DNA of 31,409 nucleotides from a virus. Shown here piece by piece: positions 13,298-31,409 of this stretch (its first letter is position 1; every line of letters begins with the position of its first letter). The translations under genes were made by a program, and so were the position numbers. The stretch is from positions 1-31,409 of IMG/VR virus record IMGVR_UViG_3300021379_001631, one strand, 5' to 3'. The notes beneath the pieces are model-generated. The model saw nothing but the letters and a program-made list of their open reading frames with translations. It did not search any database and was not told the DNA's origin.

Positions 13298-15216
13298 ACG
13301 AGTTCGGGAAGCCTGTACAATTCGGCTACGCAGGTAGTCGGCCTTCATGGAGAAAACATGAAGATGCCCTTGACAGGAGCAGTATTGTACAAACTGAAGA
13401 AAAAGTTTTATCGCACGGCAATCGCTTAGAATTGCTTTCAACCCTGCGTGACCTTGAGAGAAACAACCCGATCTGCAAATCTATCATCCAAGTATTTGTG
13501 AGCAACTTGGGTAGCTGCAAATACCAGGCAATGGGTAGCAATGAAGAACTCAACGAAGAACAAAATAAACTTTTTAAAAACTATTTTAGAAACTGCGAAA
13601 TATCAGGGCATGGTATGCAAAAGGTTTTGCAGCATATTATCACCGATTTATTATTAGCAGGTGAAGCATTTGTATTGCTAACAAAGGGAGGTAGCTTTCA
13701 ACTTGTACCATCAGAAAGGGTTGCAAGTAGCCATGACCCACAGAAACGAAAGCAAAACGAAGTTGATGGAATTGTGTTAAATCAATTCGGTAGGCCCACA
13801 CAATACAGGGTAGCTAACATTAAAGACGGTGTAGTAGATTATTCAGAAGGCATTTACATCAATAGCAAAGACTGCATACATGTAGCCAACACAACAAGGA
13901 TTGGGCAAATCAGGGGTACTCCCTTATTAGCAGCAGCAACCAAAACCCTTGAAGATATTCATGAAGTGCAAACTGCTTACACTGCAAAAGTCAAAACAAG
14001 TTCAGCTCTGACAGGATTCATAACAAGCAACCAACCATATTCAGCCAGGTGGGATGGAAACGAATTTGGAGATGAACCCATGCGGTCATCATACAAGAAA
14101 TTGTATTCTGGTTCCCTGTTGTTACTAGAAGCAGGGGAATCAGTTGAAACTATTCAAGGGGGTGCAGTTGATGGGGTGGATAAATTCATGTTATCGCTTA
14201 TATCTTTTGCCTGCTCTTCTGTTGGCATTACCGTAGAAAATTTGGTTGGGTGGTCAAACGCTTCCTTCAGTAGCTCAAAAGCAACTCGGGCAGTTACCAA
14301 TCACAGGTTCGGGCAAATCAGGGAACAGATAGAAGACATTTTCTTGCGAAGATTATGTAAGTGGAAGATGTACAAATGGGAAAATAATGGCGAAATAAAC
14401 GGAATCAGCGAAGCAGACAGAGAAAATTTCGACTTCATGTGGACAACAAGCCCAACCCTTGACCGCAGGCAAGATGCTCAAACTGATGCAGTTCTATTAG
14501 AAAACGGATTGGCAAGTAAATCCACAATCTATGCAGCCAATGGCATGGACTATGAAGAAGAGCTAAAGAAAATGGCAAAAGACAGGGCAATGGAAAAAGC
14601 ATTGCAAGGTGATGTAGCACCAGTAACAGAACAGGCTTCTATTAAAGAAAAAATTGATGCGTATGGCGTTGGTGTTCGTGCAGGTAGCATAACCCCACAA
14701 ATAGAAGATGAAAATTATTTTCGTGAGCAACTCGGGCTAGAGGCAATCAAAGAACCTGTCATGGATGCTTGGAAAACAGACGGGGGAACAAGGCGACCCA
14801 TCACACTAAAATCCCAAGAAGGGTTTGAAGAGCAAGAAGGGATTGACCAAGAGCCAACAGATGCACCTGAACAAGATGGGGAATTGACAGAAGAAGAGCA
14901 AGAAGCATTAGAGTTTGCAACTTACAATGATTACCCAAAGTCTGCATCTAACAATGCCAAAAAAGCCTTAAAGTATAGAAACGAAAATAACCCAGATTGC
15001 GGTACACCTGTTGGATGGGCACGGGCAAATCAATTAGCTAAAGGTGAAAACATAAGCAGGGACACCATCGCAAGAATGGCAAGTTTCAAAAGGCATCAGC
15101 AGCACAAGGATGTACCATATTCAGAAGGGTGCGGAGGTTTAATGTGGGATGCTTGGGGTGGAACAAGTGGCATAGAGTGGGCAATAAGAAAGCTCAAAGA
15201 AATAGATAATGCTTGA
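13276..15216 (+). CDS. Portal protein, lambda type, with C-terminal small domain
   Basis: The product has 646 residues. The first ~480 fit the lambda gpB portal family: an N-terminal helical region with SRPSWRKHEDALDRSS, a central part with LAGEAFVLLTKGGSFQLVPSERV, and the clip/stem segment with SVGITVENLVGWSNASFSSSKATR. An acidic linker (about 520-546) leads to a ~100-residue C-terminal domain containing YPKSASNNAKKALKYR, CGTPVGWARANQLA and CGGLMWDAWGG. That domain is a known phage module usually joined to other capsid-assembly proteins. The portal forms the ring through which terminase threads DNA. The next gene overlaps its stop (TGATG). Confidence 0.93.
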   Translation: MQPQTILNEFGKPVQFGYAGSRPSWRKHEDALDRSSIVQTEEKVLSHGNRLELLSTLRDLERNNPICKSIIQVFVSNLGSCKYQAMGSNEELNEEQNKLFKNYFRNCEISGHGMQKVLQHIITDLLLAGEAFVLLTKGGSFQLVPSERVASSHDPQKRKQNEVDGIVLNQFGRPTQYRVANIKDGVVDYSEGIYINSKDCIHVANTTRIGQIRGTPLLAAATKTLEDIHEVQTAYTAKVKTSSALTGFITSNQPYSARWDGNEFGDEPMRSSYKKLYSGSLLLLEAGESVETIQGGAVDGVDKFMLSLISFACSSVGITVENLVGWSNASFSSSKATRAVTNHRFGQIREQIEDIFLRRLCKWKMYKWENNGEINGISEADRENFDFMWTTSPTLDRRQDAQTDAVLLENGLASKSTIYAANGMDYEEELKKMAKDRAMEKALQGDVAPVTEQASIKEKIDAYGVGVRAGSITPQIEDENYFREQLGLEAIKEPVMDAWKTDGGTRRPITLKSQEGFEEQEGIDQEPTDAPEQDGELTEEEQEALEFATYNDYPKSASNNAKKALKYRNENNPDCGTPVGWARANQLAKGENISRDTIARMASFKRHQQHKDVPYSEGCGGLMWDAWGGTSGIEWAIRKLKEIDNA

Positions 15217-16124
15217 TGCCTGTTGCGAGAATACCAGTCGGCTGCACTGAAGTAACACAGAAAAGCCGAAATGTGTTTTTTGTAAAACACAATTTAAAAT
15301 CATCTGCCACAGAAGATTCTTTTTGGGTGTTGTTGTCATTTGATAGACACCATGATAACCCAAAATCTGACAATGCGATGGAACTCAGGCATCTCAAGCA
15401 GGCAAAAGAAAGAAACGCAATCATCATAGATGGTGGGGATTTATTTTGTGCCATGCAGGGCAAATACGACCCAAGAGCAATAAAGAAAGATTTGAAACCA
15501 GAACATGCAAAAGGGGATTACCTGGATAGCTTGGTAAATACGGCTGCCAACTTCTATGGACCCTACGCAAAAAACTTTGCAATCATGGCACTTGGCAATC
15601 ATGAAACAAACATTGCAAAGAGACACGAAACCAACCTTACGGAAAGACTTGCTGAAAAGCTCAACGACAAGGAAGGAAGTTCAATTAAAGTTGGTGGTAT
15701 GAGTGGATGGGTAAAGTTCCAAATCATGTACCATTCGCAATGTATGACTAAAAACATGTGGTATCATCACGGATACGGAGGTGATGCACCTGTTACGAAA
15801 GGGACAATACAAACAAACAGGCAGGCAGTTTATTTACCAGATGCACATATTGTAGCAACAGGGCATACCCATAACGAATGGCAGTTCCCGATTGCAAGAA
15901 TAAGGCTGACTAACAAAGGCACAATTTATCATGACGAACAACTGCACTTGAAGGTACCAAGCTACAAGGAAGAATATTCTGACGGATATGGTGGTTGGCA
16001 CATCGAAAGAGGTGGACCACCAAAACCAACTGGAGCACTTTGGCTTAGGTTCAGTGCAAGAAAAAGTAAGGAAAATAACAAAGATATTTGCGAGCCAATA
16101 CTAGAAGTAACCAGGGCAAAATAA
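15216..16124 (+). CDS. Calcineurin-like metallophosphoesterase
   Basis: The product has 302 residues. The metal-site motifs occur in the right order: DRHHD (43-47), GGD (73-75), GNHE (127-130), a His pair HHG (184-186) and GHTH (216-219). These are the hallmarks of the binuclear-metal phosphoesterase fold. The substrate cannot be read; phage members may act on nucleic acid ends, nucleotides or signalling nucleotides. It is translationally coupled to the portal gene and is the last gene before a strong terminator, which is an unusual spot for an enzyme in a head-assembly operon. Confidence 0.88.
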   Translation: MPVARIPVGCTEVTQKSRNVFFVKHNLKSSATEDSFWVLLSFDRHHDNPKSDNAMELRHLKQAKERNAIIIDGGDLFCAMQGKYDPRAIKKDLKPEHAKGDYLDSLVNTAANFYGPYAKNFAIMALGNHETNIAKRHETNLTERLAEKLNDKEGSSIKVGGMSGWVKFQIMYHSQCMTKNMWYHHGYGGDAPVTKGTIQTNRQAVYLPDAHIVATGHTHNEWQFPIARIRLTNKGTIYHDEQLHLKVPSYKEEYSDGYGGWHIERGGPPKPTGALWLRFSARKSKENNKDICEPILEVTRAK

Positions 16125-20550: not shown

Positions 20551-21438
20551 ATGGCTAACTCAATATCATCCGAAATAACCATCAGTTCAGCGGTAAGCGT
20601 ATTAACCGATTTGCTCGCCCCTGTTTCTGATTTCACGCTAAACATCACCAACGAAATCGTAGGTCGGCAGGCAACTGTAAAAGTTCCCATTGTACGGACT
20701 GACGATGTAGCTCGTGATTATTCTTATGCAACAGGGTACAACCAAGACGCAGACTCGGCAGTCGATACCATTGATGTAAACTTAGTAGAAAGAATCAAAC
20801 CTTTCCACTTGGTTGACAATGATATGAACAAGAGCCCACTGACCATCCAGAGTTATGCTAAACAGAATGCTCACGAATTTGGTCGTTATTTGCTCTCCCT
20901 TGTATTTGGTGCTATCCAAGCAGACCTTGATTTGACTACTCCAACTATCACGGCAGAAACTTCAGTAAATGCAGGTTCTACCGCTCTTACAGATATACAA
21001 GGATTGCAATCTGCTCTTGATACTGCAGGTGCTCCAATGGACAGGCATCTTGTTATGAATAGCAGCGTAAATTCTGCTCTTATGCCAAGCAGCATCGAAA
21101 CCTTCGGACCAGGTGTTTTACAAGGTGGTAGATTTGGGAATCTTTACGGAATGTCTACACATGTAACTTCTGTAACAGGTGGTTCAGCAATTGGAGATGT
21201 ACACACTTTTGCAGGTAGCAGTGATGCTCTGGTTATCGCTAACCGTATTCCAGAAGTAAGCGGAACATCTACTTTGGAAGAATACACTCCATTCACCGTA
21301 GACGGAATTGGATTACAATGTGCGTATCGCCGTTATTACGATGCTGCAAAGGGTGAACACTTCGGAGCATTCACAACCATCTTTGGTTGCTCTATTGCAA
21401 AACCTGAGCATCTTGCAGTATTAACTAAGGCATCATAA
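20551..21438 (+). CDS. Major capsid protein
   Basis: The product has 295 residues. Placement right after protease/scaffold, size and sequence texture (SVLTDLLAPVSDFTLNITNE, VGRQATVKVPIV, HEFGRYLLSLVFGAIQADLDL, GGRFGNLYGMSTHVTS, and a C-terminal GLQCAYRRYYDAAKGEHFGAFTTI split over two strands) fit an HK97-fold coat protein of the kind found with GpA terminases. The leader is A-rich (AATAAAAATAAAGAAAA) and lacks a Shine-Dalgarno sequence, typical of highly expressed genes in Bacteroidota and their phages. Confidence 0.85.
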   Translation: MANSISSEITISSAVSVLTDLLAPVSDFTLNITNEIVGRQATVKVPIVRTDDVARDYSYATGYNQDADSAVDTIDVNLVERIKPFHLVDNDMNKSPLTIQSYAKQNAHEFGRYLLSLVFGAIQADLDLTTPTITAETSVNAGSTALTDIQGLQSALDTAGAPMDRHLVMNSSVNSALMPSSIETFGPGVLQGGRFGNLYGMSTHVTSVTGGSAIGDVHTFAGSSDALVIANRIPEVSGTSTLEEYTPFTVDGIGLQCAYRRYYDAAKGEHFGAFTTIFGCSIAKPEHLAVLTKAS

Positions 21439-21439
21439 G

Positions 21440-22132
21440 ATGGCTACGGTAAACGCATCTACAATTTTTCCAAGCATCAAGTTCATCTCTACGGATGGAC
21501 TTGGTGACTTGGGGGAAACCGTAGGTAGTGCAGCAGTTGCAGCATCAAGAACCATTGATGGGCTTACATTCACCGCAGTAACCGCAGGGGCAGCAGGTAA
21601 CTCAATCACGATTGAATTGATTGAGGGGCAAAGTGCCAACGGGGTTGTGGGTGTAGAGATTAGTGCAGTTGGCAATGCAATCACCATTGCTACTGAAAAT
21701 GGTGCTTCTACATACACCCAAGGGGATGTTGAAAATGCCTATCTTGCAGCATCAACGGATGTTACTGATTTGGTTACCTTGAGTGTTGCAAATAGTGCTA
21801 CCGCTTTGATTGGGACTTTTACTTCTGCAAACCTTCAAACAGGTGCAGACGCAACAAGTGGGGACTTGGATCCAAACTCTGAATATGTATTAATCAAAAA
21901 ATCTGATTATTACGACTTAGAAGCAGGCGAAGAAACTGACGGGCGTAAACTTGTGTGGGGTGCAGTACATCGGGCATCCGAAGTTTTTGCAGGGTTGAGC
22001 GACCCACCCGAAAACTTCACTATCGCACGGACAAGCCCAGTAGCAGTCCAACAAGGAACTGCACTTCGCCAGGTATACACAATCACTGCGATTTACGCTA
22101 TTGAAGGTTTAGACCTCAAGGCAGAAGCATAA
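21440..22132 (+). CDS. Accessory head or connector protein with an inserted beta domain
   Basis: The product has 230 residues. Residues ~38-135 form a Gly/Ala/Thr-rich beta domain with the repeatedly seen phage pattern TFTAVTAGAAGNSITIELIEG and ISAVGNAITIATENGAS; it interrupts a protein whose N-terminus (FPSIKFI) and C-terminus (EYVLIKKSDYYDLEAGEE) look continuous. Such domains occur as insertions in tail sheath, capsid decoration and similar proteins. It begins 1 base after the capsid stop, so a capsid decoration or head-completion role is likely. Confidence 0.6.
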   Translation: MATVNASTIFPSIKFISTDGLGDLGETVGSAAVAASRTIDGLTFTAVTAGAAGNSITIELIEGQSANGVVGVEISAVGNAITIATENGASTYTQGDVENAYLAASTDVTDLVTLSVANSATALIGTFTSANLQTGADATSGDLDPNSEYVLIKKSDYYDLEAGEETDGRKLVWGAVHRASEVFAGLSDPPENFTIARTSPVAVQQGTALRQVYTITAIYAIEGLDLKAEA

Positions 22133-22146
22133 ACACATTTAGCTCA

Positions 22147-23481
22147 ATGGAAGATTGGGCAAGTGCTTTAGCCGAGTGCATAGAGGCTGAAAATCAAGCA
22201 TTCGGCGAAACCATACAGATTCGTGGAAAAAACTTAAAGGCTTCCCTCGGCACATCTCAGCAGGGGGAAGCCTTTGAAGTTGGTGGGTATCTTGACACGG
22301 ATACGCTGAACATCGTTTTGCCTGCAAGTGAATTGCTGCAAGTGGGCGACCCACCTGACATCAATGAAATAATTGAAATACGCAACAGGGGCTATCGTGT
22401 GCAAATGCGTAGAACCTTGGAAGCAGGGCACGGGTATGAACTACAGGTAGCATTAGTCCCACAATATATCCCAGAACGACCTACAGAACCGATTTATATT
22501 ACTCCTGACATTGTCAGCGAGTTGGGTGCATGGATAATTCCTGCAAGACCTACGGAGGTGCATTCATTGGCAAGACCAGTGCAACCTAGTGAGGTGCAAA
22601 TTTTGCAATCTCCAAGGATACCCAACGATTTAGAAGTTGGTATTATACCAGATGCACCAAGCGATATTGAAACTGCAAAAAGCCCTGATGCACCAAGTGA
22701 ACTTGAAATAGCACAATCCCCAATTAAACCCCACCAACTGCAAGCAGAAACTTTGTTGTGGACACCTGCACAAACAACAACATTAGCTTGGTATGATGCA
22801 GCAGATGAAGAATCGGTCATATCCAATTCTCACCCTGTAATTAGATGGGAAGATAAAAGTGGTAACGCATACCACTTGACTCCCGACTCAACTCAGAGTC
22901 CAGAAACGGGTCATAGAAAAATTAACAACCTGAATGCGATTGAATTTGTTCCAACCGATAACCTTATAAATACGGACATTAGCCACGACCAAACAAGTAG
23001 CCCCTTGTTCATGGCATTCATTATTAACATTGATAGTCCACAAGATGGGGGCAACACAATATTCAACGGAACAGGGGTTACTACAAAAGGCCACCGCTTA
23101 TTCCTGTCAGAGTTGAATACTGCTAACTCATATCAGGTCATGGGTGGGGATTATGTCAATAATATTCCTGGGTTTTACGGAACTGCAATAGACTCTGTAG
23201 ATACTATGCTTATGCTCAAGATACATGGAGCAAACTCAAGGCTGCGTATAGATGGCACACAAACGGGCACGGGTAATACAGGAACCGTACAGATGACTCA
23301 ATTTGAGCTTGGTGTGAATGAAGTTAATGGAAGAGACTTTGATGGTTTGATGGGGGAAATTGTTTTATTCACTGGTGCATCGGACGAAGAAAAAATTGAA
23401 GGATATTTGGCGCACAAATGGGGATTGGTAAGTGCCCTGCCTGCAACCCACCCATACAAAACAAACCCACCTTTACAATGA
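22147..23481 (+). CDS. Head-tail joining protein fused to repeat stalk and LamG-like adhesin
   Basis: The product has 444 residues. Residues 1-~105 match the layout of gpFII/head-tail joining proteins (MEDWASALAECIEAENQAFGE at the start, then GDPPDINEIIEIRNRGYRVQMRR), which sit at the head-tail junction. Residues ~120-203 are seven 12-residue P-x-x-P-[SD]-x-[LVI] units. Residues ~210-440 form a LamG/concanavalin-like domain (TTLAWYDAADEE, IRWEDKSGNAYHLT, GEIVLFTGAS, IEGYLAHKWGL). The stalk and adhesin parts resemble those of the tail fibre at 132-2945. The protein probably projects a glycan-binding arm from the neck. Its stop overlaps the next start (ATGA). Confidence 0.78.
   Translation: MEDWASALAECIEAENQAFGETIQIRGKNLKASLGTSQQGEAFEVGGYLDTDTLNIVLPASELLQVGDPPDINEIIEIRNRGYRVQMRRTLEAGHGYELQVALVPQYIPERPTEPIYITPDIVSELGAWIIPARPTEVHSLARPVQPSEVQILQSPRIPNDLEVGIIPDAPSDIETAKSPDAPSELEIAQSPIKPHQLQAETLLWTPAQTTTLAWYDAADEESVISNSHPVIRWEDKSGNAYHLTPDSTQSPETGHRKINNLNAIEFVPTDNLINTDISHDQTSSPLFMAFIINIDSPQDGGNTIFNGTGVTTKGHRLFLSELNTANSYQVMGGDYVNNIPGFYGTAIDSVDTMLMLKIHGANSRLRIDGTQTGTGNTGTVQMTQFELGVNEVNGRDFDGLMGEIVLFTGASDEEKIEGYLAHKWGLVSALPATHPYKTNPPLQ
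22504..22755 (+). repeat. Seven 36-bp coding repeats (12-residue P-x-x-P stalk), second gene
   Basis: Seven 12-codon units start at 22504 (degenerate), 22540, 22576, 22612, 22648, 22684 and 22720, encoding for example PVQPSEVQILQS and PDAPSELEIAQS. They have the same period, Pro spacing and hydrophobic position 7 as the repeats at 753-1004, but different codons, so they are old or under protein-level selection. Confidence 0.9.
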
Positions 23482-23918
23482 GCGATTATCTGCAATTCGA
23501 AACCAATTTAGAATCAGGATTGGTTACAACCCTGTTGGGTGCAGGCATAAAAGCAGAAGTTAGCAGGGACTTAACCCAACTTGGAGCATCCAATGTCCAG
23601 GTCAGCTTGCAATACATGGGCGCTAGGGAAGATTCACGCAAACTGCACAAGAATTACCAAGAGTATGATTTGCACCAGGCAGCAGTACAAATACAGGTTG
23701 TCACTTATCGAGATAACTTTGGAGACCATCACAGGATGCTCGGGCAAATACGGGAAATAATGTTAAACCACAAGCAACCATTCGGCAAAAAGTGGTACCA
23801 TGTTTATGACATAAAACCCTTGAGCACAGAGCAGTTTAATGACGAAGAAACAAATACAGACCAAACCACATTGAGTTACGAAATAACTTTCCAACTGCAT
23901 TTTGCAAACTTGGAGTAG
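23478..23918 (+). CDS. Tail terminator / tail completion protein
   Basis: The product has 146 residues from ATG 23478 (overlapping the previous stop). Position between the head-tail joining gene and the tail tube gene, size, and the alternating beta-alpha texture (SNVQVSLQYMGARED, AAVQIQVVTYRD, HRMLGQIREIML, LSYEITFQLHF) match lambda gpU-like tail terminators. These proteins cap the tail tube and join it to the neck. Assignment rests on synteny and length rather than a signature. The stop TAG is inside intergenic element copy 3. Confidence 0.65.
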   Translation: MSDYLQFETNLESGLVTTLLGAGIKAEVSRDLTQLGASNVQVSLQYMGAREDSRKLHKNYQEYDLHQAAVQIQVVTYRDNFGDHHRMLGQIREIMLNHKQPFGKKWYHVYDIKPLSTEQFNDEETNTDQTTLSYEITFQLHFANLE

Positions 23919-23962: not shown

Positions 23963-24331
23963 ATGGCTAATCACGATAACATCACTATTGACGGAGATAA
24001 CTATCAATTTGGGGGTCTTGTTACCACTATTAACGGGCAGCAATATATCTTCCAAGAACTTACCGTCTCCAACGGCACAAATGTAATTGAGCTTGAAGGC
24101 TCACAAGGCGAGGTAATTAGTCAGGTGTTTATCGGCAGACCCAAAGAGGCAAGCGGAACCGCAATCCTTGAAACCGATACTGCTCTTTTAGTTCGTGGAG
24201 ACGAATTTACTGCCGAGCTTGTTGCAGGGCAAGGCACATCAACTTTCCTCATTACAGAAACATCCATCAGTAAAAGCAACGGAGCATTCAGCACACAAAC
24301 ATTTTCCGCACGGGAAAAACTGAACCCCTAA
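23963..24331 (+). CDS. Major tail tube protein
   Basis: The product has 122 residues, predicted all-beta (NITIDGDNYQFGGLVTTING, VIELEGSQGEVISQVFIG, TFLITETSISKSNGAFSTQTF). Small beta-rich proteins in this exact position, between the tail terminator and the tail chaperone, are tail tube subunits that stack as hexamers around the tape measure. No strict signature is available. It has a long A/T-rich leader that includes intergenic element copy 3. Confidence 0.7.
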   Translation: MANHDNITIDGDNYQFGGLVTTINGQQYIFQELTVSNGTNVIELEGSQGEVISQVFIGRPKEASGTAILETDTALLVRGDEFTAELVAGQGTSTFLITETSISKSNGAFSTQTFSAREKLNP

Positions 24332-24931
24332 TTGGCTTTTTCAGAAGATATAGCAAAAGCCTTGGAGCAATCCAAGGTTTATGAGTCAGAGGCTTGGCTT
24401 AACCAAAATACCAACATCTGCGGAATAGAAATCCGACAGATGACCCTATACGACTTTTATGTACTTGACGGGGTTGAAAGCCCATTTCTGTCAAAGCAAG
24501 AATATACGGTAGGTGATATAGCAGTGTTTCTATGGATTCTAAGCACCAAGCATTCAAAAGAATCAGCAGATCAAAAAAAATTTGCAGAAGAAATCCACGA
24601 GATTAAAATCTTGGAAGCAGAAAAAGGCATTCTAGAATACATAGAAGCAACCTTCAATGATGCCGACACTCTGGTAGAACAAAAAAAAGACAAGGCGTAT
24701 GCCCCATACATTGCTTATCAAATTGATTTGTATGCGAAAGAGTACGGGTGGAGCATTGAACAAATCATGCAAATACCCTTACGGCAGTTGTTCCAACTTA
24801 ATACCGTTATTGGTTCACGATATGCAAAACAATCAGGCAACCAATATACCAAAATGACAAGGGTGGAAGCAATGGAAGCTAAAGCAATTTTGGACGAAGT
24901 AAAAAAACAAAAACAACCAAGGCACAACTGA
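24332..24931 (+). CDS. Tail assembly chaperone-like protein
   Basis: The product has 199 residues, helical and acidic, directly upstream of the tape measure gene, the standard place of the tail assembly chaperone (lambda G). The start is a TTG at 24332, the base after the tube gene's TAA; no nearby ATG fits. The last codons contain a run of seven A (24901-24907) in the arrangement GTA AAA AAA CAA that could slip, but alternative frames end within 12 codons, so a lambda-like G/GT fusion is not supported. Confidence 0.6.
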   Translation: MAFSEDIAKALEQSKVYESEAWLNQNTNICGIEIRQMTLYDFYVLDGVESPFLSKQEYTVGDIAVFLWILSTKHSKESADQKKFAEEIHEIKILEAEKGILEYIEATFNDADTLVEQKKDKAYAPYIAYQIDLYAKEYGWSIEQIMQIPLRQLFQLNTVIGSRYAKQSGNQYTKMTRVEAMEAKAILDEVKKQKQPRHN

Positions 24932-24953: not shown

Positions 24954-27728
24954 ATGGCATTTAGCGATCATGTAAAGGTTATATTCGGGGCAGACACCAA
25001 AGGTTTCCAGACTGAGCTTGGCAGGGCTCACGATAAGGCAAAACAATTCAAGAGCCAAATGGCAACCCTGCTCACAGGGGCATTGGGTGCAGCAGCTTTC
25101 CAAAAAGGAAGTGAAGCGGTTATAGATTATGGCACTACCTTGAGCAACATGGCCACAAGGCTAGGGGTCTCAACTGATTTTTTACAAAAATATAACTTTG
25201 CAGCGAACCAAAGTGGGGTAGAAACGAATGCTGCCAATGTCGCTTTACAAAGGTTTCTTCGCAGGGCAGCAGAAGCAAAAGAAAAAGGTGGACCACTCAA
25301 GGAAACCTTAGATAAACTTGGAATTGCTTTTACTGATGTAAATGGCAATGCCAAAAGTGGGGAAACTTTATTTCAAGATTTTGGTAAAGCACTTGGTGGG
25401 ATACAAGACCCTTCGGAAAAGCTAAGAACTGCGTTCCAATTCTTGGATACCGAAGGTGTTGCATTAACTCAAATGTTTAAGGATGCAACCAACCCGATTG
25501 AAGATATGGGCAAAGAAGCTGAGAGGCTAGGATTGGTTCTTAGTAGTGAGACAGTAGAAGACCTAAGGGCAGCAGGTGACGAACTAGATCGGCTAAAAAC
25601 AACCTTTGTAACATCATTAGCCCGTGGGCTTATTCCCTTCATTCGGAAATTATCAGAATTTAAAGAACCAATTTCAGCGGTAATACAAAAGTTCGGGGAG
25701 TGGGCTCCAAAAATTGGTGCAGTAGTAGCAGTACTGGTTGCCCTTAAAACTGCTTTGGGAATCAAAGCGATTATAGCAGGTGTTGCCGTAGCAGTTGGTG
25801 GGCTTGGAACTGCCATAGTTACATTGAAAAATGCGATGCTCGCATTGAATGTAGTTATCAATAAAAATGGGTTTACAAGATTAGCAGCAGTTATATCAGG
25901 TGTTGCAGCAGTGGCAATAACCGCACTGGCTGACAAGTTCGGTCTCTTTGAAGCAAAGGTAGAAGATACGGCAAACAAAATGCAGCAGAAATTGAATCCA
26001 CAAATTGATGGATTAAAAAACAAAATAGCTGCTACACAGGCAGAAACTGAAAAACTTAGGCAAGAGTTGCAAAAACTAAACGAAGTTGAAGTTAAACTTG
26101 GGATTGACCAACTAGAACTAAACCTTGTGAACGCAGGTGCAGCAGTTCAGAAAAATATAGAAGCACTTAAAAAACAGATAGAGCAGCAAAAAAAGACAGT
26201 AGATGCAGCACAAGAGCATGTATGGAAGTTAGAAGACCAGAATGCAGCAACTGAAGATGTGAGTGATGCAACCACTGCACTACTTAGAGAGAAACAAAAC
26301 CTCGCCAACCAAGAAAACAATTTAGAAAAACTGCTCAAAAAACATTTCGATATTGAAAAAGAACGGAAAGGGTTGATGGAGCAAATAAACCAACTGCGAC
26401 AAGCTGAAGCACTTGGTATGAAGGACTTATTCGATGGAAGCAACAAAGTTACAATTGAGTTGCGAAGGCAGAAAGAAATAAACGATGCTTTAAAGGAAGG
26501 TGGAGAAAAACTTGTTGAACAAGTTAAAGAACGGCATGAGTTTGAAAATAAGGTAAAAGAACTTGTTACCAACGGCAAAATGGAAATGAAAGATGCCGTA
26601 AAAATAGCAGGGGATTTGGTTCAAAAGAAGGGCGAAAACAAAGACTTGTTGGATAAAATAAAAGAGGCCGAAAAAGCAGCAAAACAAGTAGCAGACCAAC
26701 GGGACGGGGTAGAAGGTGCAATATTAGAAAAACTGAGGCAACAACTGGCACAACAAAAACTGAACCGCTTGGAAGCAGACAAGCAACTCCAAGTTTTGCA
26801 GCTACAAGCAGCAGGTCAAAACGATAAAGCCATAGCATTGCAAGCTCAGTTCGATAAAGAAAAACAAATACTGCAAGTGATGCAGCAACAAGGGCTAAAC
26901 CTCCAACAAGCAAAAGCACAAATTGAACAAAAAGAACGACTAGAAAACCAAGTCAAGCTGAACATTATTGACCAACAAATTGAAGAAAAAAAGATGGGCG
27001 GTATTCGGGAACTTGCCCAAAGAAGAATTAAGGATGGCATTGATGCGGAAGAAAAAGCTCAAATCAGAAAAGCCAAAAAAATCGTGTTTTTAGAAGATCA
27101 AATATTGGCAAAAAAAGATGAGCAAAACGACCTTGCAGTAAAGCAGGTCGCGGAGTGGGAAAAAATCAAACTCAGGGAAGTATCCTTATTATTAGATGAT
27201 GCTACTGCCGAAGATTTGGAAGAACTGCAAAGAGAAAAATTGCAACTTGTTGATAATCATGCCCAACAAATGGCAGCACTCCAGGCAGCCCAGGCACAAA
27301 TCCAAGCCGATCAAAATGCAGCACAAGCAGCAGCGATAGCAGACAGGGCAGCAATCGCAAAAGATGGAGCAGATATTGCCAAAAAAATCAAAGATGTTAA
27401 TGATGCAGCAGTTCAAGAAATGGCAGCAGTGGGTGACAAGCAGGTGCAAAAGCTCGATCAAATAAATAACAACCCTGCCGTAAAGGATGCAGTAAAAGAC
27501 ACAAAGCAAACATTAGACACAACCATTAAAGATTGTTGTAAAGCAATAGTAGAAGCAATCAATAACATCAAAATTACTGCAAGCGGTTCGGGCGGTTCTG
27601 CTTCTTCACCAACACCTCAACCGCCAAATGTGATAAACCAAATCACCGTAAATATTAAAAGCGAATTGAAAGAAAAAACCCAAGAAGACATACTGCGAAC
27701 TCTGAAGGGTTATTTCGTGAATCAGTGA
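24954..27728 (+). CDS. Tail tape measure protein
   Basis: The product has 924 residues, the second longest in the window. The N-terminal ~240 residues (VKVIFGADTKGFQTELGRAH, GALGAAAFQKGSEAVIDYGT) are a conserved tape-measure start. Residues ~252-330 are strongly hydrophobic and Gly/Ala/Val-rich, the usual membrane-inserting part. Residues ~345-840 are almost entirely Gln/Lys/Glu-rich coiled coil. It sets tail length: at about 0.15 nm per residue the tail would be near 140 nm. No lysozyme or peptidase domain was seen. Long open frames on the opposite strand here are shadows of this composition. Confidence 0.93.
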   Translation: MAFSDHVKVIFGADTKGFQTELGRAHDKAKQFKSQMATLLTGALGAAAFQKGSEAVIDYGTTLSNMATRLGVSTDFLQKYNFAANQSGVETNAANVALQRFLRRAAEAKEKGGPLKETLDKLGIAFTDVNGNAKSGETLFQDFGKALGGIQDPSEKLRTAFQFLDTEGVALTQMFKDATNPIEDMGKEAERLGLVLSSETVEDLRAAGDELDRLKTTFVTSLARGLIPFIRKLSEFKEPISAVIQKFGEWAPKIGAVVAVLVALKTALGIKAIIAGVAVAVGGLGTAIVTLKNAMLALNVVINKNGFTRLAAVISGVAAVAITALADKFGLFEAKVEDTANKMQQKLNPQIDGLKNKIAATQAETEKLRQELQKLNEVEVKLGIDQLELNLVNAGAAVQKNIEALKKQIEQQKKTVDAAQEHVWKLEDQNAATEDVSDATTALLREKQNLANQENNLEKLLKKHFDIEKERKGLMEQINQLRQAEALGMKDLFDGSNKVTIELRRQKEINDALKEGGEKLVEQVKERHEFENKVKELVTNGKMEMKDAVKIAGDLVQKKGENKDLLDKIKEAEKAAKQVADQRDGVEGAILEKLRQQLAQQKLNRLEADKQLQVLQLQAAGQNDKAIALQAQFDKEKQILQVMQQQGLNLQQAKAQIEQKERLENQVKLNIIDQQIEEKKMGGIRELAQRRIKDGIDAEEKAQIRKAKKIVFLEDQILAKKDEQNDLAVKQVAEWEKIKLREVSLLLDDATAEDLEELQREKLQLVDNHAQQMAALQAAQAQIQADQNAAQAAAIADRAAIAKDGADIAKKIKDVNDAAVQEMAAVGDKQVQKLDQINNNPAVKDAVKDTKQTLDTTIKDCCKAIVEAINNIKITASGSGGSASSPTPQPPNVINQITVNIKSELKEKTQEDILRTLKGYFVNQ

Positions 27729-31025: not shown

Positions 31026-31409
31026 CACACAAAAAGTGCCCACAAAGGCATTGGAAAACATAAACGGGGTAACCAGTGCAGCTTTCCCGACTATGGTGCA
31101 AAACGACAACTTGCCAATTGAGATAGACATACTCAATGAAGACGGCACACTACCTTATTTTTGGGGTTCTGCTGAATATGCAATGAAACTATCTATTGGA
31201 GACATTGCAACAAGACTCACATACTGCGAGAGTAATATAATGACCCCAAGCAACGGGTTATACACTGGCACAATCAATATTAATAGCAGTGCCCTGATAG
31301 GTGCATTGGTTGGCAACATGGCAATCAATGTAGATGTACAAGTTGCAGTTTCTTCATACACAGGTATGTTAGAAACAATTTTGCTCACCAACTCAAGGGT
31401 ATTAGCCGA
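31009..31409 (+). CDS. Tail-tip/baseplate-type protein, 5' part of a junction-spanning gene
   Basis: It starts with ATG 31009 and stays open to the window end; merged with 1-135 it encodes 137 residues. It opens MRLKINTQKVPTKALENI and has PTMVQNDNLPIEIDILNEDG, which resembles the N-terminal domain of siphophage baseplate or fibre-attachment proteins. The same layout begins the large fibre gene that follows (FGSQFFWKDTVNLQIEF), so the two N-termini may be related and dock at the same tail position. Function inferred from that resemblance and position. Confidence 0.75.
   Translation, partial: MRLKINTQKVPTKALENINGVTSAAFPTMVQNDNLPIEIDILNEDGTLPYFWGSAEYAMKLSIGDIATRLTYCESNIMTPSNGLYTGTININSSALIGALVGNMAINVDVQVAVSSYTGMLETILLTNSRVLA
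31288..31409. repeat. Terminal direct repeat, right copy
   Basis: This is the partner of 1-122, identical except G at 31296 versus A at 9. Both versions encode leucine in the junction-spanning gene. Confidence 0.95.

Follow-up and report, generated by a model that had tools for sequence, protein, structure and literature searches.

A predicted gpFII-type stopper with a proline-repeat spacer and a ConA-like C-terminal domain in a phage with a lambda-like morphogenesis block

Stopper proteins, packed tightly into the DNA gate of the phage, are usually small. The locus described here raises the question of what a protein of this type does with an additional arm of about 340 residues that ends in a lectin-type domain. 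The window, i.e., the whole stretch of DNA analyzed, is the virus record of 31,409 bases. Its two ends (positions 1-122 and 31288-31409) match each other over 122 bases except for one, which makes it probable that the record is a complete genome of about 31.29 kb. For comparison, seven relatives were fetched using the portal, capsid and tube proteins of the window as queries.

The morphogenesis genes follow a lambda-like order: small terminase, large terminase, portal, capsid, the gene starting at 21440, the fusion gene, a terminator-like gene, tube, a gene in the position of the chaperone, and tape measure. The small terminase subunit matched PHROG_57, and a large terminase of the GpA type (lambda type) and a portal of the lambda family are encoded upstream of the fusion gene. 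The major capsid protein (20551-21438; PHROG_283/267 major head protein) is followed by a conserved protein, possibly a decoration or adaptor protein (21440-22132), which is syntenic in relatives and gave no family match. Downstream of the fusion gene, a tail terminator-like protein of 146 amino acids (23478-23918) was assigned by synteny, a weak match to PHROG_176 (E 0.032) and a match to Pfam Tail_completion_gp17 (E 0.08). Next come a putative tail tube protein (23963-24331), named for its position and 55-98% identical in relatives, and a putative tail assembly chaperone (24332-24931), which lies between tube and tape measure and was assigned by synteny with no family match. The tape measure protein (24954-27728) was recognized by length, position and a match to Pfam PhageMin_Tail below the cut-off (E 3.9e-6). 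The genes from capsid to tape measure lie on the plus strand.

Three further observations concern this block. The protein between the capsid and stopper genes ranges from 230 to about 340 amino acids among the window (21440-22132) and relatives L092 (8896-9927) and L103 (3949-4971), the length varying apparently by internal domain repetition. Over its C-terminal ~100 residues (14890-15210, residues ~539-644), the portal often shares 73-87% identity with stretches of many other phage contigs whose similarity to it is confined to this part (confirmed for 597 of 600 pattern matches); the pattern would suit a conserved mobile domain attached to the portal. Between terminator and tube, relatives L092 (12518-13479), L093 (6241-7214) and L094 (8579-9549) carry a gene for a 244-amino-acid metallophosphatase-like protein and one for a protein of ~90-100 amino acids; in the window, a phosphoesterase gene (15213-16124) follows the portal gene instead.

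The fusion ORF (22147-23481, plus strand) starts with ATG at 22147 and continues uninterrupted through 444 codons to the TGA at 23479-23481, with an ATGA overlap (23478-23481) between its 3' end and the start of the next gene. It encodes a stopper domain (residues 1-106; 22147-22464), a proline spacer (residues 107-204; 22465-22758) and a ConA-like domain (residues 205-444; 22759-23478). Relative L001 encodes a full-length counterpart with 89% identity, and dN/dS between the two was 0.048/0.569 in the stopper, 0.136/0.688 in the spacer and 0.035/0.316 in the lectin region. Thus, all parts of the neck fusion are under purifying selection in this comparison, and the whole ORF is maintained as a protein. 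Other phages with the same fusion, a check proposed in the preliminary description, do exist: five relatives also encode a stopper joined to a proline spacer and a lectin. With the window, this makes six distinct phages that have the fusion, and the idea of an assembly artefact was rejected for this reason.

The assignment of residues 1-106 was based on structure prediction and gene position. An AlphaFold2 model from a seven-member alignment showed an N-terminal helix (residues 2-19), a beta-sandwich and a low-confidence loop (residues 39-50); its confidence was moderate (pLDDT 78), with one loop under pLDDT 50. An N-terminal helix with a small beta-sandwich in about 100-120 residues is the layout of the gpFII-type fold (PMC10721106). 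The top PDB matches in Foldseek were the R4C stopper-terminator complex, the Chi, T4, lambda and Pam3 necks and the SPP1 connector, at modest E-values (R4C stopper, best, 1.8e-3; lambda neck 8k37_M, 4.2e-3). VIA alignment gave Z 10.0 to the stopper of roseophage R4C and Z 9.3 to lambda gpFII (97 residues, 2.8 A), and nearly all rows with Z >7 were neck proteins. Matches in BFVD included annotated head-tail joining or adaptor proteins. No Pfam, PHROG or PDB-sequence profile match to joining families was obtained for residues 1-106, and divergent neck proteins are often missed by such profiles. PDB sequence searches with the stopper profile and the lectin profile gave no match; the N-terminal domain alone gave two non-significant matches among cultured phages (E about 9) and one among plasmids (E 0.6). 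The gene lies between the major capsid and tail terminator genes of a lambda-type block (the terminator assignment itself being weak, PHROG_176 E 0.032). Proteins in the same slot of six of the seven relatives were 28-92% identical over the first ~106 residues, and that of the seventh, L103, matched the stopper profile at E 2e-26. The proposal of a gpFII-type joining domain in the first ~105 residues, which the preliminary description had made from size, position and sequence texture, was thus upheld by predicted fold, gene position and the armless homologues of 106 residues that relatives encode at this locus, and at this level of fold and position the domain is supported as a gpFII-type stopper.

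In predicted fold, including the N-terminal helix, in genome slot and in length, the domain resembles lambda gpFII, the R4C stopper, SPP1 gp16 and XM1 gp4. Loop 39-50 of the model sits about where a hairpin of lambda gpFII orders only on assembly (PMC10721106). Whereas lambda gpFII ends at residue 117, the window protein continues with the spacer-lectin arm of ~340 residues, and it also differs in having no sequence-profile match. Since longer stopper-fold proteins were among the structure matches (a T4 neck chain of 165 and a phiKZ neck chain of 437 residues), extension of a stopper as such is already known; a lectin or esterase cargo on a repeat spacer is new with respect to the freely accessible literature searched, in which no stopper fused to a lectin or to an esterase or glycan domain was found.

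The spacer is built of PxxP units with a 12-residue period. The seven 12-residue proline repeats described initially were seen as seven in-phase prolines (residues 120, 132, 144, 156, 168, 180 and 192), six of which (132-192) carry full PxxP units spaced by 12. When residues 107-204 were shuffled 20,000 times with their composition preserved, three shuffles reached the phase score and none had as many paired PxxP units as the real sequence. Among relatives, the number of units ranges from about 3 to 13.

The C-terminal domain, which ends in an EGYLAHKWG...LPATHPYK motif, was predicted with confidence as a jelly roll (pLDDT 90.2, pTM 0.90). Its best VIA match was domain 4 of arabinanase AbnA (Z 20.4), one entry of which contains a bound arabino-oligosaccharide; the tailspike of cyanopodophage Pan3 followed with Z 19.4, and a GH54 arabinofuranosidase and a trans-sialidase lectin-like domain were further near structures. 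PHROG_10356, annotated as virion structural protein, matched at E 1.8e-22, so that jelly roll and family profile together give a ConA-like lectin fold of the PHROG_10356 type. Pfam Laminin_G_3 (PF13385) scored 15.3 bits, below its gathering cut-off of 27.6, and the domain is therefore called ConA-like rather than LamG_3: of the LamG-like arm first described, the glycan-binding type of fold was retained and the LamG family name was not. ConA-like folds serve non-glycan roles too; by fold resemblance, the arm is a candidate glycan-binding domain. Matches to tetanus and botulinum binding domains, and the label botulinum neurotoxin on a cyanophage protein, were set aside as reflecting the shared jelly roll only, not function.

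The lectin domain is widespread, with 505 matched stretches in IMG/VR, mostly in proteins whose short N-terminal tags are unrelated. One protein of this type, CPKG_00053 of cyanophage KBS-S-2A, is 30% identical to the window lectin over the whole domain and is encoded directly before the head closure protein Hc1; in contrast to the window protein, it is standalone, with a short N-terminal tag, and lacks both stopper fusion and proline spacer. In KBS-S-2A, S-CBS4 and S-SRP02 (L008, L009 and L007), proteins of the lectin type form clusters with short, interchangeable N-terminal peptides (MTLVWRPGF, MSWIITG and MPIYTPGKVVL); these clusters lie beside neck genes in one phage and beside fibre genes in another.

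The arm varies among the relatives. Stopper, spacer and lectin occur in the window, L001, L012 and L103, while L025 (identical in contig L013) and L092 have a stopper, a short spacer, a SASA acetylesterase domain and the lectin. The SASA domain (PF03629), located between spacer and lectin, was matched in L092 with 76.8 bits (E 2.5e-21) and in L025 with 75.7 bits (E 5.3e-21) against a gathering cut-off of 24.8; it is absent from the window protein. Relatives L093 and L094 encode a bare stopper of 106 amino acids at the same locus, and in both the terminator encoded by the next gene has spacer-like units (P.APSNIL) near its C-terminal end, to which L094 adds a small extra domain. On neither the capsid nor the portal tree do the two lineages with SASA group as sisters, and both trees are compatible with loss of the arm in the bare pair as well as with its original absence there. 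Since relatives swap the cargo or carry the spacer on the neighbouring terminator, the arm is supported computationally as a portable module with exchangeable cargo. Because of the acetylesterase, an acetylated polysaccharide is the likeliest target in the two relatives that carry it. Queries with the stopper domain and the conserved tube protein retrieved no prophage relatives from bacterial genomes. Akkermansia phage Moulinsart (28% terminase identity) was considered as a cultured relative and dropped, since it gave no stopper or lectin profile match.

The same modules were found on a second protein of the window, P0002 (132-2945, plus strand; 937 amino acids), a putative tail-fibre or tail-tip protein. 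Its spacer (residues 199-271) is 40% identical to the neck spacer, and it also matches the C-terminal part of the neck lectin domain. The tail proteins of relatives likewise carry spacer and/or lectin. At residues ~383-432, between proline spacer and lectin, P0002 contains a GDSGAP motif and matches Peptidase_S6 weakly (E 0.012), so that a trypsin-like protease domain may be present there.

Both domain folds, the covalent fusion, its conservation, the reuse of modules and the exchange of cargo are supported computationally, and we consider it probable that the protein is a gpFII-type stopper with an accessory polysaccharide-adhesion arm fused to its C terminus. We infer virion incorporation, copy number, glycan binding and benefit from this reading. 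The N-terminal domain, probably a hexamer, would sit between portal or adaptor and tail terminator. Lambda gpFII forms a hexamer, and its C-terminal loop contacts the terminator gpU (PMC10721106); therefore, the extended proline spacer of each subunit would leave at the stopper-terminator seam. Since this loop packs against gpU in lambda, the outward exit of the arm is an assumption. The spacer would hold the ConA-like domain away from the particle, and binding of the arms to polysaccharide, either in the host envelope or around it, would be of low affinity and multivalent. The ring of arms and the targets named in the preliminary description (mucus, capsule or algal polysaccharide) would be possible forms of this. 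In this way, the particle might be kept at the surface while the tail-tip protein with the same spacer and lectin engages, weak multivalent binding complementing the tail tip as proposed for the neck modules of 936 phages.

Two known systems come close to the proposed arm. Lactococcal 936 and TP901-1 phages display carbohydrate-binding modules (CBMs) where head and tail meet, in neck passage structures (NPS), some groups of which are similar to the CBMs of carbohydrate esterases; a neck CBM of a 936 phage bound host cells weakly (PMC6669499). The NPS consists of a distinct collar protein, in which coiled-coil fibres follow a BppU-like N-terminal beta-sandwich, whereas the window arm is part of the stopper and continues from the stopper fold into a proline repeat. 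The fusion would thus work like NPS or collar devices without belonging to them, given that its N-terminal domain has the stopper fold instead of a BppU-like one. In Vibrio phage XM1, six trimeric tailspike-like collar spikes of gp40, for which host sensing was suggested, are located on the seam of stopper (gp4) and terminator (gp5), i.e., the seam at which the window arm is proposed to exit (PMC10457771). XM1 gp40 is a separate trimeric protein of 839 residues that docks non-covalently and has an Ig-like attachment domain and a coiled coil; the window arm, in contrast, is covalent.

One alternative reading is structural: the lectin-like domain would hold on to a part of the phage itself (capsid, neck or tail fibres) rather than to a glycan of the cell surface, as a whisker- or collar-like brace or a fibre-retention device. 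T4 whiskers function in fibre assembly, the collar of Milano is thought to add robustness (PMC10491603), the collar spikes of XM1 reinforce the joint (PMC10457771), and a ConA fold by itself is no proof of sugar binding. However, a brace has no obvious need for 3 to 13 spacer units or an inserted acetylesterase, two relatives lack the stopper arm, and the presence of the lectin on hundreds of phage contigs is easier to reconcile with an external ligand than with one particular part of the phage. We therefore regard this role as unlikely, although it is the best of the alternatives. Still less probable is that the C-terminal part is not displayed, with the protein being processed or an internal start yielding a separate lectin, so that the working stopper is bare. 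The stoppers of L093 and L094 are bare and standalone lectins are common in cyanophages, but the frame is continuous in six phages with the spacer maintained, and inspection by eye of the region just before the lectin revealed no clear candidate for an internal start preceded by a ribosome site. That the N-terminal domain is another small neck or minor tail protein and the true stopper lies elsewhere is very improbable: the primary-sequence signal is weak and the neck inventory is incomplete (no confident adaptor, and gene 21440 without a role), but the best fold matches are nearly all to stoppers or neck proteins, a terminator-like gene follows, and distant relative L017 has a 104-amino-acid match to the stopper (E 0.007) directly after its capsid gene.

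With an adhesion arm on the stopper as the preferred reading, a broader proposal can be made tentatively, and we rate it as possible rather than probable. The stopper-terminator seam may be an evolved mounting rail, on which a portable 12-residue spacer hangs exchangeable lectin and acetylesterase modules on neck ring, terminator or tail tip; the neck would then be a second polysaccharide-engaging organ, enzymatically active in some members. The repeated occurrence of lectin and esterase cargo on the gate within one lineage suggests that a phage neck can serve for adhesion or as an enzyme platform even when there is no dedicated collar protein. Since natural armless relatives exist, the function of the neck appendage is open to a direct genetic test. 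The finding also suggests that extended stoppers and terminators are worth checking when phage host-range determinants are annotated.
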